Of a stretch of 64,000 bases of DNA, positions 3,256 to 51,984 are shown piece by piece; position 1 is the stretch's first letter; every line of letters begins with the position of its first letter. Under the pieces are notes generated by a model, which made no database searches, had not been told where the DNA came from, and worked only from the letters and a program-made list of their open reading frames with translations. The DNA is from Rhodoluna limnophila. Lineage in GTDB: Bacteria > Actinomycetota > Actinomycetes > Actinomycetales > Microbacteriaceae. The stretch covers positions 62,001-126,000 of the forward strand of contig CAMCXL010000001.1 of NCBI GenBank assembly GCA_945883505.1. Direction: 5' to 3'. The position numbers and the translations under genes were made by a program.

Positions 3256-3618
3256 ATGGCCCAGCAAACAATGCGCGGTATCAGGCTTGGAGCACAATCT
3301 CTCGAATCCGAAGTGGGAGTTAGCTACTCCCCCAGGACCAAGCACAGCTACCAGTGCCCAAACGGACACGTCAGTGAAATAGTTTTTGCCCAAGATGCCG
3401 AGCTTCCAAATTCCTGGCAGTGCAAGTCCTGCAAACAGCAGGCTCAGCTGCTAACCGATGGAAAGCTAATCAAGCTGGACATCGAAGATCTAAAGACACC
3501 TCGCTCACATTGGGAGATGCTTCAGGAAAGACGCTCCAAAGAAGAGCTCGAAGAGATTCTCAAAGAGCGAATCTCTTATATCCGAGCACGGCGCAAGGCT
3601 GGAAAAGCCGACGTCTAA
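3256..3618 (+). CDS. rbpA: RNA polymerase-binding protein RbpA (canonical copy)
   Basis: Actinobacterial transcription activator that binds RNA polymerase and group 1/2 sigma factors and stabilises the open complex. The 120-residue product has the N-terminal 'RGIRLGAQS' tail, a core domain with possible zinc ligands C34, H38, C56 and C59, a basic linker, and the C-terminal sigma-interaction helices 'HWEMLQERRSKEELEEILKERISYIRARR'. ATG 3256 has AGGAG just upstream; a longer in-frame start at 3214 is not needed. It ends in a shared CTAA stop with ppm, matching the known rbpA/ppm1 neighbourhood. A second, tailed paralog lies at 47971. Confidence 0.93.
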   Translation: MAQQTMRGIRLGAQSLESEVGVSYSPRTKHSYQCPNGHVSEIVFAQDAELPNSWQCKSCKQQAQLLTDGKLIKLDIEDLKTPRSHWEMLQERRSKEELEEILKERISYIRARRKAGKADV

Positions 3619-46351: not shown

Positions 46352-47283
46352 TAGTCGATCTACCTGAAACCACAGTAAGCAAAATCTCAAGGTCTCTGGT
46401 TCAAATGCGGGAGCAGGGCGGAGCCGTTGCGCTTGGTCGCGTTCTGACTTTGATTATCCAAACTGATGCCAAATCCGCAGAGGCAGCGATTGAAGCTGCC
46501 AACGCCGCTTCGAGGGAGCACCCCTCCAGGATCATCGTCCTGGTAGATACAGATACGGGCACAGACCCAAGACTTGACGCTGAAATCCGGGTGGGTGGGG
46601 ACGCAGGAGCCTCTGAGGTCATTATTCTTCGTGCCTATGGTGAAGCTGCAACCCATCCGCAGTCATTGGTTTTGGGTCTATTGCTTCCCGATGCGCCGGT
46701 AGTTGCCTGGTGGCCAAACGCTGCGCCAGCGGTAGTGTCCGAATCAGCCATTGGCAAGATTGCAACCAGACGCATCACCGACGCACTGAGCCAGAAGGAT
46801 CCAGCTGAATTTCTTGAGCAGCTCTCAGAAAGCTATTCACCAGGTGATAGCGATTTTGCTTGGACCCGATTGACGCTCTGGCGTGCTCAGCTTGCAGCAC
46901 TTTTAGATCAGCCACCTTACGAACCGGTTGAGTCTGTAGAGATAATCGGGGACCTGAATAATCCAAGCGTGCTGCTATTGGCCGCTTGGCTCAAAGTTCA
47001 ACTGGACTGTCCTGTAAGAACGGAGCACCGCGAGGATACCGCCGGCGTCAAGGGCGTGTACTTGGTCCGCTTGTTTCGAAATGGCAGTGACATCGAGATC
47101 CTAAGAGATCAGTCAAACGTTGCCACCTTGTCTCAAACAAACCACCCGCCGAAGGACCTTTCCCTTCCGGTTAGATCACTTCGCGACTGCTTAGCTGAAG
47201 ACCTAAGGCGGTTAGGCCCCGATCTAGCATTTGAGAAGGTCATAACATCCGGTCTTCCGCTAGTGACAGGTTTGCCAAAGTGA
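46348..47283 (+). CDS. opcA: Glucose-6-phosphate dehydrogenase assembly protein OpcA
   Basis: Redox-responsive activator of Zwf in Actinobacteria and cyanobacteria. 311 residues, with 'RVLTLIIQTDAKSAEAAIEAAN', 'LLLPDAPVVAWWPNAAP' and 'DFAWTRLTLWRAQLAALLDQPPYEPV' characteristic of OpcA. TTG start overlaps zwf. Confidence 0.93.
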   Translation: MIVDLPETTVSKISRSLVQMREQGGAVALGRVLTLIIQTDAKSAEAAIEAANAASREHPSRIIVLVDTDTGTDPRLDAEIRVGGDAGASEVIILRAYGEAATHPQSLVLGLLLPDAPVVAWWPNAAPAVVSESAIGKIATRRITDALSQKDPAEFLEQLSESYSPGDSDFAWTRLTLWRAQLAALLDQPPYEPVESVEIIGDLNNPSVLLLAAWLKVQLDCPVRTEHREDTAGVKGVYLVRLFRNGSDIEILRDQSNVATLSQTNHPPKDLSLPVRSLRDCLAEDLRRLGPDLAFEKVITSGLPLVTGLPK

Positions 47284-47984
47284 AGCTCGAGGTCCTGCAC
47301 CACTTCGAATCCGGTGATCAGCTAGCAGAGCAAGCCGCTACCGACCTAGCCGAAGCAATAACATCGCTCTTGCCAAGCCAGAGAGTTCACATTGTCCTAA
47401 CCGGTGGAACAGTTGGAATCAAAACACTCGCAGCGCTTGCACCACTTCTAAAGTCAGTTGATCTAAAAAAGATTGAACTTTGGTGGGGCGATGAAAGATT
47501 CGTCGATGCCTCCAGTCACGAGCGGAATTTTGTGCAGGCCTCAGAGGCACTACTTTCAAAGGTTTCTATCCCGGCGACGAATCTGCATCAGATGCCAGCA
47601 GCGGGAGATCTCTCGCTAGCTGAAGCAGCTTCGAAGTTCTCGACCCATATCGATAAAGTCGCTCCTAGGTTCGACATAGTGCTACTCGGTATGGGGTCCG
47701 ATGGCCACGTTGCATCACTTTTTCCAAACTCGGCTGCAACAAGTTCTGGCGAGCTGGTGGTAGCCGAGGCAAACTCCCCTAAGCCGCCCTCCGAGAGAAT
47801 CTCTCTGAGCTATTCGGCTCTGTGCAGTGCGCGAGAGGTTTGGTTCCTGGTTTCAGGCCCGGATAAGGCCGATGCGGTGAATCAAGTATTTTCAGGGAGA
47901 GATCTTCCAGCCACCAAAGTGTCTGGACAACAACTAACCCGCTGGTATTTAGATACCCAGGCAGCAGCTGCTACTTCTTTTTAG
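47280..47984 (+). CDS. pgl: 6-phosphogluconolactonase
   Basis: Hydrolyses 6-phosphogluconolactone. 234 residues: 'VLTGGTVGIKTLAAL', 'WWGDERFVDASSHERNF', 'DIVLLGMGSDGHVASLFPN' and 'RISLSYSALCSAREVWFLVSG'. GTG start coupled to opcA. The next enzyme, 6-phosphogluconate dehydrogenase, is not in the window. The 3' end overlaps the RbpA paralog tail by 14 bp. Confidence 0.95.
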   Translation: MKLEVLHHFESGDQLAEQAATDLAEAITSLLPSQRVHIVLTGGTVGIKTLAALAPLLKSVDLKKIELWWGDERFVDASSHERNFVQASEALLSKVSIPATNLHQMPAAGDLSLAEAASKFSTHIDKVAPRFDIVLLGMGSDGHVASLFPNSAATSSGELVVAEANSPKPPSERISLSYSALCSAREVWFLVSGPDKADAVNQVFSGRDLPATKVSGQQLTRWYLDTQAAAATSF

Positions 47985-48666
47985 TTGCCTTTTTTGCAGT
48001 TGGCTTTGAAGCAGCTTTGGACTTGGTCTTGGCAGCTGCCGGCTTAGCTTTTCCTTTGGCAAGCTTCTTGGCTGCTGGCTTGGTTTTTGGTTTCGAGGCT
48101 GGCTTTGCTGAAAGTTTCTTGCTGGCAGGTTTGCCAGCTGGCTTAGCAGTAGTTTTCTTTGCGCTAGTTTTCGAGGCGACCTTCACTGCCTTGACTGGCT
48201 TGGCTGGCTTAACTGGCTTGACCGCCTTGGCTGCCGCAGCCTTCGCTGCAGCTACCTTTGCTGCCTGTGCCCTGGCAACTGCAAGCTTGGCTTGTTTTGT
48301 TGCTTCCTGGGCTAGCTTGACCCTGCGTTCGCGAATAGAAGCAAGTGCTTCATCCAACAATGCTTTTGCCTCGTCCGAGGTTCTTCTTTCCTTAACGTAG
48401 GCAAGGTGGGTCTTATAAGGCTCGTGCTTGGCGATCTCGGGAGGATTCTTCTTGTCTTGGCCTGCCTGCATTCCGCAGTTTGGGCAGTCGATCATGTCTG
48501 GGATTTCGGCCGGGTCGATGTGGGCGGCGAACATCGGCTCCTGAACGTGGCCGTTTATGCAAAAGTAGCTGCGCTGTACTCTTTCGGACTTGAATCCGCG
48601 GTACTGCTCACCCATCGGCCCCGCACCAACACGAGACCCTCTGATTGCTGAACCGCCGTTAGCCAA
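47971..48666 (-). CDS. RbpA paralog with histone H1-like Lys/Ala/Pro tail
   Basis: 231 residues in two parts. Residues 1-115 are a complete RbpA: 'RGSRVGAGPMGEQYRG' tail, core with C36, H40, C61 and C64 as possible zinc ligands, basic linker, and sigma-interaction helices 'THLAYVKERRTSDEAKALLDEALASIRERR'. Residues 116-231 are almost only K, A, P, S, T, with no acidic residue after about 121, in AKP/KPA/AAK repeats like histone H1 or mycobacterial HU. Such tails bind DNA nonspecifically. TTG start with AGGGG 6 nt upstream, 9 bp after secG. Canonical rbpA is at 3256. Tail function is inference. Confidence 0.87.
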   Translation of the reverse strand: MANGGSAIRGSRVGAGPMGEQYRGFKSERVQRSYFCINGHVQEPMFAAHIDPAEIPDMIDCPNCGMQAGQDKKNPPEIAKHEPYKTHLAYVKERRTSDEAKALLDEALASIRERRVKLAQEATKQAKLAVARAQAAKVAAAKAAAAKAVKPVKPAKPVKAVKVASKTSAKKTTAKPAGKPASKKLSAKPASKPKTKPAAKKLAKGKAKPAAAKTKSKAASKPTAKKATKKK

Positions 48667-48675
48667 TGACTACCC

Positions 48676-48921
48676 CTAGAATCCGAATCTAGTGAAAAGG
48701 CCTAGGCCCACAACTGTTGAAATCCAAACCAAGCCCAAAATAATGGTGATGCGGTTCAGGTTACGCTCAGCCACTCCCGAGGAGGAAACGTTTGAAGTCA
48801 CTCCACCACCAAACATGTCCGAGAGTCCTCCACCTCGACCCTTGTGTAGCAGAATCATCAGGATTAGCAACAAGCTAGTGATAGCAAGAAGCACCTGGAG
48901 GGCGATTTGAATGGCGGCCAT
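48676..48921 (-). CDS. secG: Preprotein translocase subunit SecG
   Basis: Small SecYEG channel subunit. 81 residues, two helices ('IALQVLLAITSLLLILMILLH' in parts and 'ITIILGLVWISTVVGLGLF') around 'KGRGGGLSDMFGG', the typical loop. ATG start. Third in the gap-pgk-tpiA-secG order common in Actinobacteria. Confidence 0.94.
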   Translation of the reverse strand: MAAIQIALQVLLAITSLLLILMILLHKGRGGGLSDMFGGGVTSNVSSSGVAERNLNRITIILGLVWISTVVGLGLFTRFGF

Positions 48922-48954: not shown

Positions 48955-49740
48955 TTATAAGGTGACATGCTTCTGGAAGCGGCAGATACCAGTGAATTCC
49001 TCGACATCCAGGCTTGCACCACCCACCAGGACCCCGTCTACCTCGTCAGAAACCAAGAATCCAGCGACGTTTGCGCTCTTTACGCTCCCGCCATACAAAA
49101 TGCGGGTGGCGGCAGCTACCTCTTCAGAAACAAGCTCCCGGATGGTCTCCCTGAGCTTTTTGGCAACATCTGCGGCCTGCTCTGAAGTGGCAACCTTTCC
49201 GGTTCCGATTGCCCAAACTGGCTCGTAAGCCACCACGAACTCGCCGATCTCTTTGTGCTCCGCTAATGCCTTGCTCAGCTGACGGATTGGAACAGCTGCA
49301 GCGCCCTCTGATTCAAGCTCCTCCAGGGTCTCTCCAACACAAATAACTGGAATCAGGTTGTGCTTAAAAGCTGAGGCCACCTTGGCTTGGATAAGTTCAT
49401 CATCCTCGTGGTGGTGCTGACGTCTTTCGGAATGCCCGACAAGCACGTACCTAACGTCAAGCTTTTTCAAGAAGGCACCGGAGATCTCACCGGTGTAGGC
49501 GCCGGAGTCGTATTTCGAAAGGTCTTGAGCGCCTAGCACCAACGGGAGTTTGTCCGCGTCAATCAGTGTCTGCACACTTCGAAGGTCGGTAAACGGTGGA
49601 AAAACAGCAACCTCCACTAGATCAAAGTCGTGGTTTACATCCTTTAGGGTCCAAGCCAGCTTCTGAACTAGGGCAATACCCTGTTGGTGGTCTAGGTTCA
49701 TCTTCCAGTTACCTGCGATTAGCGGTTTACGATCGCTCAA
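48955..49740 (-). CDS. tpiA: Triosephosphate isomerase
   Basis: Interconverts the triose phosphates. 261 residues: 'AGNWKMNLDHQQGIALVQKL', catalytic His in 'YVLVGHSERRQ', catalytic Glu in 'VVAYEPVWAIGTGKVAT' and 'ILYGGSVKSANVAGFL'. TTG start overlaps the pgk stop (TTGA). Confidence 0.96.
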   Translation of the reverse strand: MSDRKPLIAGNWKMNLDHQQGIALVQKLAWTLKDVNHDFDLVEVAVFPPFTDLRSVQTLIDADKLPLVLGAQDLSKYDSGAYTGEISGAFLKKLDVRYVLVGHSERRQHHHEDDELIQAKVASAFKHNLIPVICVGETLEELESEGAAAVPIRQLSKALAEHKEIGEFVVAYEPVWAIGTGKVATSEQAADVAKKLRETIRELVSEEVAAATRILYGGSVKSANVAGFLVSDEVDGVLVGGASLDVEEFTGICRFQKHVTL

Positions 49741-50939
49741 TTCAGAACCTCCAGGCCCGGTAGTGATTTTCCTTCTAGATATTCAAGACTAGCTCCGCCA
49801 CCTGTGGAGATGTGGCCAAACTCGCTGTCTAAAAAGCCAAGCGTACGGACTGCTGCTGCGGAATCTCCGCCCCCAACGACACTTAACCCCTGCACCTTGG
49901 TTAGAGCCTTAGCTATCGCTTTGGTGCCAGAGGCAAACGCCTCAAACTCGAATACCCCCATCGGTCCGTTCCAGAAGCAGATGTTAGAGCTGGCTATTAC
50001 CTCAGCGAGGCGTTTTTCGGAGTCGGGACCAATGTCTAATCCGATTCCCGAAGATCCGAATCTGGTCTGATCCAAAGTCTCAGCGCTTGCAATCTCAACC
50101 TCCGCATCGGATGCGAACTTACTTGCCATCCGGATGTCGGTTGGCAAAATGATGTTGACCCCGAGCTCAGCTGCGTGCCTCAAATAGTCTTGAACAACCG
50201 GGATCTGATCTTGTTCCAAAAGCGATGAAGCCACCTGGTATCCCTTTGCGGCAAGAAATGTGAACAGCATTCCCCCGCCAATAATCAAGTTGTCGACCTT
50301 TGGAAGCAAGGAACCAATTACACCGAGCTTGTCAGAAACCTTGGAGCCACCAAGCACAACGGTGTACGGCTTTTCATCGGATGAAGTGAGCTCTCGAAGC
50401 ACTTGGACCTCACGCTCAATAAGTAATCCAGCAGCTGATGGAAGTGCCTGTGCAAGCTCAAAAACGCTGGCTTGCTTGCGGTGTACAACGCCAAAGCCGT
50501 CACTGACAAACACATCGGCCAGCGCCGCGAGCTTCTGAGCAAATGCTTGCCTTACCGCTTCGTCTTTACTGGTTTCGGCATCCGAGAATCGAAGATTCTC
50601 TAAAACTGCAACACCGCCGGGAACCAGTGCTTTGGCAACGCCCTTGGCGTCGCTACCGACGGTATCTGATGCAAAAAACACCTCTTGGTTCAATAGCTCT
50701 GCAAGAGCCTTAGCAACCGGAGCAAGAGAGTAAATATCGTTGACCTGACCATCTGGTCTTCCAAGGTGAGAGCAGATCAATACGCTGGCTCCGGCTTCTT
50801 GAAGCCTTGCAATAGTAGGTAGCGCAGCCCGAATGCGACCGTCGTCGGTAATAACGCCATCTTGCATGGGTACGTTAAAGTCACAACGTAAAAGCACACG
50901 CTTGCCGGCTAGATCGCCTAAATCAGATATTGTTCTCAA
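49737..50939 (-). CDS. pgk: Phosphoglycerate kinase
   Basis: ATP-forming step from 1,3-bisphosphoglycerate. 400 residues: 'LLRCDFNVPMQDGVITDDGRI', 'HLGRPDG', 'VLGGSKVSDKLGVI' and 'GGGDSAAAVRTLG'. Two TTG starts are possible. TTG 50939 gives MRTISDL, as usual in the family; TTG 50960 would add seven residues and overlap gap by 17 bp. Neither has a ribosome site, so coupling to gap is likely. Confidence 0.94.
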   Translation of the reverse strand: MRTISDLGDLAGKRVLLRCDFNVPMQDGVITDDGRIRAALPTIARLQEAGASVLICSHLGRPDGQVNDIYSLAPVAKALAELLNQEVFFASDTVGSDAKGVAKALVPGGVAVLENLRFSDAETSKDEAVRQAFAQKLAALADVFVSDGFGVVHRKQASVFELAQALPSAAGLLIEREVQVLRELTSSDEKPYTVVLGGSKVSDKLGVIGSLLPKVDNLIIGGGMLFTFLAAKGYQVASSLLEQDQIPVVQDYLRHAAELGVNIILPTDIRMASKFASDAEVEIASAETLDQTRFGSSGIGLDIGPDSEKRLAEVIASSNICFWNGPMGVFEFEAFASGTKAIAKALTKVQGLSVVGGGDSAAAVRTLGFLDSEFGHISTGGGASLEYLEGKSLPGLEVLN

Positions 50940-50943
50940 GTTT

Positions 50944-51984
<1,041 letters not shown>

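Follow-up and report, generated by a model that had tools for sequence, protein, structure and literature searches.

The characterised RbpA proteins, those of Mycobacterium and Streptomyces, end soon after their SID helices. The canonical action of RbpA, as one study describes it, is through a basic linker that contacts DNA upstream of −10; in mycobacterial RbpA the linker residues K76 and R79 are absolutely conserved, and R79 touches the −13/−14 phosphate (PMC5302886). R88 of RbpA is required for sigma binding (PMC8956947). A second group of described systems consists of proteins with lysine repeats: TopA, HrdB, Ku and HupS bear such repeats, with a role in DNA binding; in actinobacterial TopA they keep the enzyme stably on DNA, and Ku and HupB require their Lys-rich C-termini to interact with DNA (PMC7398561). 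RbpA is not among the bearers of lysine repeats named in the available text of that paper.

Here we describe an RbpA paralog, RbpS, encoded in a stretch of Rhodoluna DNA of 64,000 nucleotides (the window). RbpS is like the characterised RbpA in its PF13397 match, its zinc ligands, its sigma-contact arginine and its top sequence and fold matches. It differs in that it belongs to a separate subfamily, has a changed linker and last helices, and continues for 116 basic residues where the characterised proteins end. Our literature search found no description of a tailed RbpA and no functional study of a secG-linked RbpA subfamily; the main text of an RNA-seq study of freshwater Actinobacteria (PMC8591293) makes no mention of RbpA.

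An RbpA paralog with a basic tail is encoded next to secG

The ORF of interest (Table 1) encodes 231 amino acids from a TTG start codon, and residues 7–112 of its product match the Pfam family PF13397 (E 1.1e-30, 106.7 bits against a cut-off of 25). The last 116 residues contain 36 K, 36 A, 10 P, 1 E and 1 R and carry a net charge of +36. The RbpA paralog with a basic tail that the initial annotation had placed here is real, and the tail is conserved. The gene belongs to a run of the order gap-pgk-tpiA-secG-rbpS and converges with pgl; we presume the names of these neighbours from family knowledge. In a R. limnophila-like genome (G003; L074:4217-7289), genes resembling those for glucose-6-phosphate isomerase and transaldolase are convergent to rbpS instead of pgl.

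A search of the whole genome found two RbpA copies. The second, rbpP, encodes 120 amino acids and ends 7 residues past the point from which the RbpS tail is counted; it is a canonical RbpA that stops soon after its sigma helices, as had been stated. No NCBIfam model matched either RbpS or RbpP.

Table 1. Features of the rbpS locus and the tailless comparison copy (positions in the window)
Feature	Position	Strand	Basis or remark
rbpS, secG-linked RbpA paralog with basic C-terminal tail	47971..48666	−	ORF, Pfam; start position conserved in relatives
RbpA domain, residues 1–115 (C36, H40, C61, C64; linker K80-H-E82-P-Y-K85; R94)	48322..48666	−	Pfam, alignment
Tail part 1, residues 116–147, K/A-rich and proline-free, predicted to prolong the last SID helix	48226..48321	−	AlphaFold2
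Tail part 2, residues 148–231, predicted disordered K/A/P/S/T stretch	47974..48225	−	AlphaFold2
Shine-Dalgarno-like AGGGG, 6 nt upstream of TTG	48673..48677	−	read from sequence
secG, immediately upstream of rbpS, 9 nt between	48676..48921	−	ORF; name presumed from family knowledge
tpiA, upstream of rbpS, same gene run	48955..49740	−	ORF; name presumed from family knowledge
pgk, precedes tpiA	49737-50960		same gene run
gap, precedes pgk	50944-51972		same gene run
pgl, convergent with rbpS, 3' ends overlap by 14 bp	47280..47984	+	name presumed from family knowledge
rbpP, canonical RbpA, ppm1-linked, tailless comparison copy	3256..3618	+	ORF, Pfam, neighbours

RbpS is a separate subfamily of RbpA with a changed linker

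By their neighbours, RbpA loci split into two sets, one linked to ppm1, lnt or glpQ (RbpP) and the other linked to secG (RbpS). A SecG-like ORF stands beside rbpS at 136/136 loci outside the genus and at 57 of the 59 inside it, the remaining two being located where a contig stops. We built a tree of 72 rows, drawn from 203 RbpS and 63 RbpP rows together with two solved RbpA chains; in it, RbpS formed one side of a branch with an SH-aLRT of 99 and both solved chains lay opposite, although the alignment behind this tree is short. An RbpA cluster with glycolysis-linked synteny had been met earlier in Streptomyces without functional study (PMC13118837), and this cluster may well be RbpS. Likewise, the genes swept in Cryobacterium include rbpA with secG, tpiA, pgk and opcA (PMC12943682); this rbpA is the secG-linked copy, again met without functional study.

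The RbpS core retains several marks of the family. The zinc ligands C36, H40, C61 and C64, which we take to be of the Streptomyces type, are all present, as the initial annotation had noted, and are invariant across 31 aligned sequences, the window's included. R88 of M. tuberculosis RbpA aligns with R94 of RbpS, which is invariant in the same 31 sequences (the mapping of M. tuberculosis residues to RbpS depends on one alignment). The top-ranked matches of RbpS were RbpA chains of initiation complexes both in phmmer and in Foldseek, where the fit was loose (E 3.2e-05, rmsd 6.2, TM 0.27/0.45). The linker, on the other hand, is different. At the R79 position we found K in 188/188 RbpS (59 from the genus, 129 from outside) and at the K76 position E in 186/188, and W82/M84/L85/L86 are replaced by L/Y/V/K in nearly all RbpS; these counts leave out the frame-broken locus L228 and six weak matches. 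RbpP linkers, in comparison, have R at 79 in 61/63 and K at 76 in 59/63. The sigma-binding helices, described at first as kept, are thus kept with respect to the arginine, but W82/M84/L85/L86 are replaced and the linker charges differ. Because K76 and R79 are replaced in RbpS, we file it as a separate RbpA subfamily and not as an ortholog of the characterised RbpA.

We also asked how widely the two kinds occur. Among the matches listed, strong ones to the RbpS model came from many family codes in the samples of the order and the class. In family f22 the best RbpS-model match among those listed had an E value of only 7e-10 to 1e-5; f22 is probably the mycobacterial family, because the RbpA of its genus g156 is 90–91% identical to M. 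tuberculosis RbpA in 5/5 genomes tried (this comparison covered 8 f22 genomes). The studies of RbpA mechanism cited here were carried out in mycobacteria. One mycobacterium-like f22 genome (G501) has a second canonical-type RbpA copy, 77% identical.

Within the family, we considered 137 genomes that are ≥90% complete and ≤5% contaminated and that were present in both searches (the 150 of the RbpS-model search, within the 249 of the PF13397 search). A single PF13397 match, of the RbpS type, was found in 11 of them, from six genera (G071, G153, G095, G168, G114, G183, G116, G185, G124, G192 and G137; the last is a 240-contig draft whose genus mate carries both kinds). Two genomes had the RbpP type only (G092, G164), and G080 gave one weak match. 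As RbpS is the sole RbpA in 11 genomes, it can stand alone, and this suggests that RbpS works as an RbpA. Four family genomes of genus g70 (G135, G197, G249, G295), listed as 100% complete, yielded a single weak match to RbpA apiece (E 2e-11 to 7e-10), and their RbpA is very divergent. In small-genome members of the class (f44; loci L408, L410-L412, L414-L416 and L419, with one RbpS-model match per genome), the C-terminus of RbpS is a short GDD/GED-like acidic stretch, whose charge is the reverse of that of the Rhodoluna tails.

The tail is predicted to continue the last SID helix and then to become disordered

The tail stands out in the window by its lysine density, with 22 K in 60 residues; the runner-up among the 114 stop-to-stop frames of ≥100 aa has 10. 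The far tail is not covered by any Pfam family; the only non-RbpA match up to E 1 was a sub-threshold glycosyl hydrolase match at residues 82–143 (E 0.19). AlphaFold2, given 31 sequences, predicted one unbroken helix over residues 97–147 and disorder after it. The prediction thus makes the first ~32 tail residues helical, as an extension of the last SID helix, rather than disordered. Block pLDDT was 88–90 over residues 111–140, 79 over 141–150 and 46–60 in tail part 2, within a model of low overall confidence (mean pLDDT 65.7, pTM 0.26). Alanine-rich helices are prone to over-prediction.

The tail had been called histone H1-like. It shares a K/A/P-rich, disordered composition with linker histone H1 and with H1-like bacterial proteins; however, Pfam found no linker-histone domain, RbpS is without the globular winged-helix H1/H5 domain, and the tail sits on a zinc-fold sigma-binding domain. 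The tail comes closest to the actinobacterial lysine-repeat extension. Like the repeats of TopA, HrdB, Ku, HupS and HupB, the tail is a Lys/Ala-rich extension of a host that, judging from RbpA, is associated with nucleic acid; unlike them, it is carried by a sigma-binding accessory protein, and a predicted helical spacer precedes the repeat. The N-terminal Lys/Ala/Pro arm of the principal sigma factor (HrdB, Rhodoluna σA) is similar in composition and belongs to the presumed binding partner of RbpS, although it is found on another protein and at the other terminus and is followed by an acidic block. The tail thus resembles the Lys-rich arm of σA and the actinobacterial lysine repeats rather than histone H1.

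Among the loci read, long tails are confined to a minority of RbpS in Rhodoluna

An RbpA match was present in 65 of the 67 genus genomes searched, and we read 59 RbpS ORFs from 57 of these genomes (two genomes have two loci each; two ORFs are 5'-cut). Long tails of 63–116 aa were found in 11/59 ORFs, from ten genomes including the window's, short tails of 19–25 aa with 4–6 K in 20/59, and 28/59 end within 15 aa. The closest named record, a R. limnophila MAG with 96% core identity, has a tail of 107 aa, and G001, which appears to be R. lacicola, one of 88 aa. Outside the genus, no intact tail longer than 15 aa was found at 136 RbpS loci (130 with a model score >100, six weaker), a non-random sample made up of top-ranked loci and, deliberately, of those with open frames >150 aa, so that long tails would not be missed. 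One family genome (L228) has an rbpS split by a frame break, which gives a spurious 146-residue run. RbpS without a long tail is therefore the norm, comprising 48/59 genus ORFs and all intact ones among the 136 outside loci. Furthermore, 17 class loci (one a repeat) had no tail >6 aa, and among 80 loci of named records a long tail was seen in one (R. limnophila) and a tail of 19–25 aa in four. RbpA with a long Lys-rich tail, which the initial annotation had proposed to seek across Microbacteriaceae, was thus found in Rhodoluna but not elsewhere among the loci read. The ppm1-linked RbpP of the genus was tailed in 0/33 cases, ending within about 20 residues (one is cut by a contig end), as read mostly by eye from the last 45 residues.

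A frameshift or a wrong start could in principle fuse unrelated sequence to RbpA. We found no point in support of such a reading or assembly artefact, the start position is conserved among relatives, and in-frame tails occur in separate assemblies, including the closed genome G001 and the R. limnophila MAG; we therefore give this explanation practically no weight.

The tail was probably added to RbpS and is constrained in its charge

To place the tails in the phylogeny, we used a tree of 63 rows, built from the neighbouring genes together with the RbpS core (58 rows from the genus, with one more excluded, and 5 from outgroups). On this tree the state 'tail ≥60 aa' needs 3 changes; the tree was made by a quick method and has long branches, and its five outgroup rows do not fall on one side of a branch. 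The tailed groups, separated by starred branches, are clade A, which contains the window (G000, G003, G009, G012), clade B (G001, G010, G021, G023, G061) and G036. The tree itself gives no direction, but because the outgroups are tailless we infer that tails were gained rather than lost, at least three times. Similar tails seem to have arisen independently in sister lineages. Where relatives lack a long tail, rbpS and pgl are −8 to 91 bp apart, which indicates that the tail is added coding sequence; an origin by reading into the intergenic gap was rejected, since the gaps in these relatives are too short.

We then compared the tails with each other. In clade A, tail length (107–116 aa) and K count (34–36) are constant, and the net charge per tail residue is 0.30–0.31 in all five tails (0.20–0.24 in the six other long tails), while tail identity is 0.44–0.64 in 9/10 pairs. 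The helical part is the better conserved, with a mean pairwise identity of 0.72 versus 0.49 for the remainder in the five clade A tails, and 0.76 versus 0.42 in the other long-tail clade. For 9/10 clade A pairs, tail pS was 0.76–0.85, near saturation, and pN 0.23–0.40; the closest pair had a tail dN/dS of 0.21. As pN of the RbpS core was far lower (0.00–0.12), the tail is looser in sequence than the core. Replacement of K by E was seen in 3/183 ordered-pair K replacements in clade A; for one-step replacements the count was 3/45 versus 2 in 9 expected from a simple transition-weighted model (P 0.005, from pairs that are not independent). Constraint acts on charge more than on sequence. The tail is not a product of chance, as pN is well below pS and dN/dS is low in the closest pair, and the divergence of the sequence at a fixed charge density indicates that it is translated and selected. 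Rather than being absent from all relatives and untranslated, it is present in ten Rhodoluna genomes and under purifying selection.

These data also bear on whether the tail could be a tolerated, functionless low-complexity expansion. The weak DNA repeats inside the tail (TRF scores 49–78), its fast divergence and its absence from most relatives agree with this idea. The constant charge density and K count, the few K-to-E changes, the low pN relative to pS and the conserved first third of the tail speak against it, and we consider it improbable.

Lysine-rich extensions are common in the genome and the genus

The KPAAK codon pattern occurs 28 times in the window's own genome versus 0 in the control. 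At 27 of these 28 places its bearers, named by our own reading of their sequences, are presumably RbpS, σA, L15, GyrB, ParB, FtsH, YajC and a pair of small basic proteins. ParB has the motif once, internally and not as a tail, and HU of the same genome is tailless. Lys/Ala/Pro extensions are N-terminal on L15 and GyrB and C-terminal on FtsH and YajC (L379, L386, L401, L375). One of the small proteins is H1-like, with 13 KPAAK motifs and near-regular DNA repeats of ~30–33 bp (L388, C6:78453-78884), and the other is encoded at C4:138614 (L383). The pattern is present in 67/67 genus genomes, with medians of 23.5 in tailed genomes, 16 in the others and 1 in the reversed-pattern control (57 genomes compared).

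The RbpS tail might be one case of a tendency, shared across the genus, to extend many proteins with Lys/Ala/Pro stretches that serve a generic purpose (binding of polyanions such as RNA or the ribosome, solubility, or partition into the nucleoid or a condensate) and have no special promoter effect. The spread of KPAAK within the genome and across the genus agrees with this, and the extensions on L15, GyrB, YajC, FtsH and the two stand-alone proteins indicate that promoter factors are not the only bearers of the trait. However, the abundance of the motif is no clear guide to which genomes are tailed, and we rejected it as the cause of the tail (Mann-Whitney P 0.20, 10 tailed versus 47 others); moreover, RbpP is tailless in all 33 cases, whereas RbpS changed state at least three times. 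We regard a purely generic tail as rather unlikely.

The N-terminal arm of σA is K/A/P-rich in the genus genomes read through that region (30 loci, a few of them cut short). In the window's own genome the K and A fractions are 0.31 and 0.31 in the RbpS tail and 0.25 and 0.20 in the σA arm. A trade-off between the σA arm and the RbpS tail was rejected, the trend being weakly positive instead (Spearman +0.37, P 0.07, 24 genomes). A match in composition between tail and σA arm within a genome was set aside as evidence (187/5000 permutations were as good, from 7 genomes only, which are mutually related), and the tail as a copy of another extension of its own genome was rejected, as the search returned the tail itself and a non-significant match (E 8.6) in a GyrB region.

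Discussion

We propose, tentatively and with somewhat less than even confidence, that the tail is a helix-plus-disordered arm that gives RNA polymerase a higher nonspecific affinity for DNA at promoters. We infer from the sequence that RbpS binds σA and DNA, and the same holds for any effect on transcription. The RbpS core, given its family and its kept sigma-contact arginine, would bind RNA polymerase and σA as RbpA does. The Rhodoluna lineage of the window would have its last sigma-interaction helix lengthened by ~30 residues and capped with ~84 disordered Lys/Ala/Pro residues, and this arm could extend from sigma domain 2 as far as nearby DNA. There it would hold DNA by nonspecific, charge-based contact and so lengthen the residence of RNA polymerase on promoter DNA. 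In doing so it may add to the Lys-rich N-terminal arm of σA and offset the changed linker contact, in which E and K replace K76 and R79. The tail is not required to compensate for the linker, though, because the changed linker is common to tailed and tailless RbpS.

An electrostatic arm is the most likely function, with its strongest support in the constant charge, the repeated appearance of the tail on RbpS and not on RbpP, and the similar arm of its partner. What speaks most strongly against it is that L15, FtsH and YajC carry similar arms and that many RbpS are tailless. Taken further, actinobacteria may have two ancient kinds of RbpA, of which RbpS had its linker rebuilt and, in Rhodoluna, gained a helix-mounted lysine arm at its C-terminus at least three times, forming together with the σA arm a sigma-tethered clamp on DNA; this larger scheme we hold to be possible but doubtful.

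The tail could instead be a switch, in which lysine acetylation or a similar modification toggles the grip on DNA and thereby sets the competition between RbpS and RbpP for σA. The genus has two RbpA paralogs, yet only one group 1/2 sigma factor (one PF00140 match in 58 of the 59 genomes having a match, 67 searched), and the lysine repeats of Streptomyces TopA are likely acetylation targets according to an unpublished remark (PMC7398561). A candidate switch fits these two points, but we give it little credence.

The proposed role of the arm in holding polymerase on DNA can be approached experimentally, since the apparent R. lacicola, which carries the 88-aa tail, is cultured, harmless and transformable; natural transformation and gene replacement have been published for R. 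lacicola (PMC11577799). If the electrostatic arm is real, the nonspecific grip of RNA polymerase on DNA would be tunable via charged arms on accessory factors, and the repeated change at one site of one paralog would mark where such an arm is useful. Beyond the tail, our data indicate a widespread second RbpA subfamily with a different DNA-contact chemistry.
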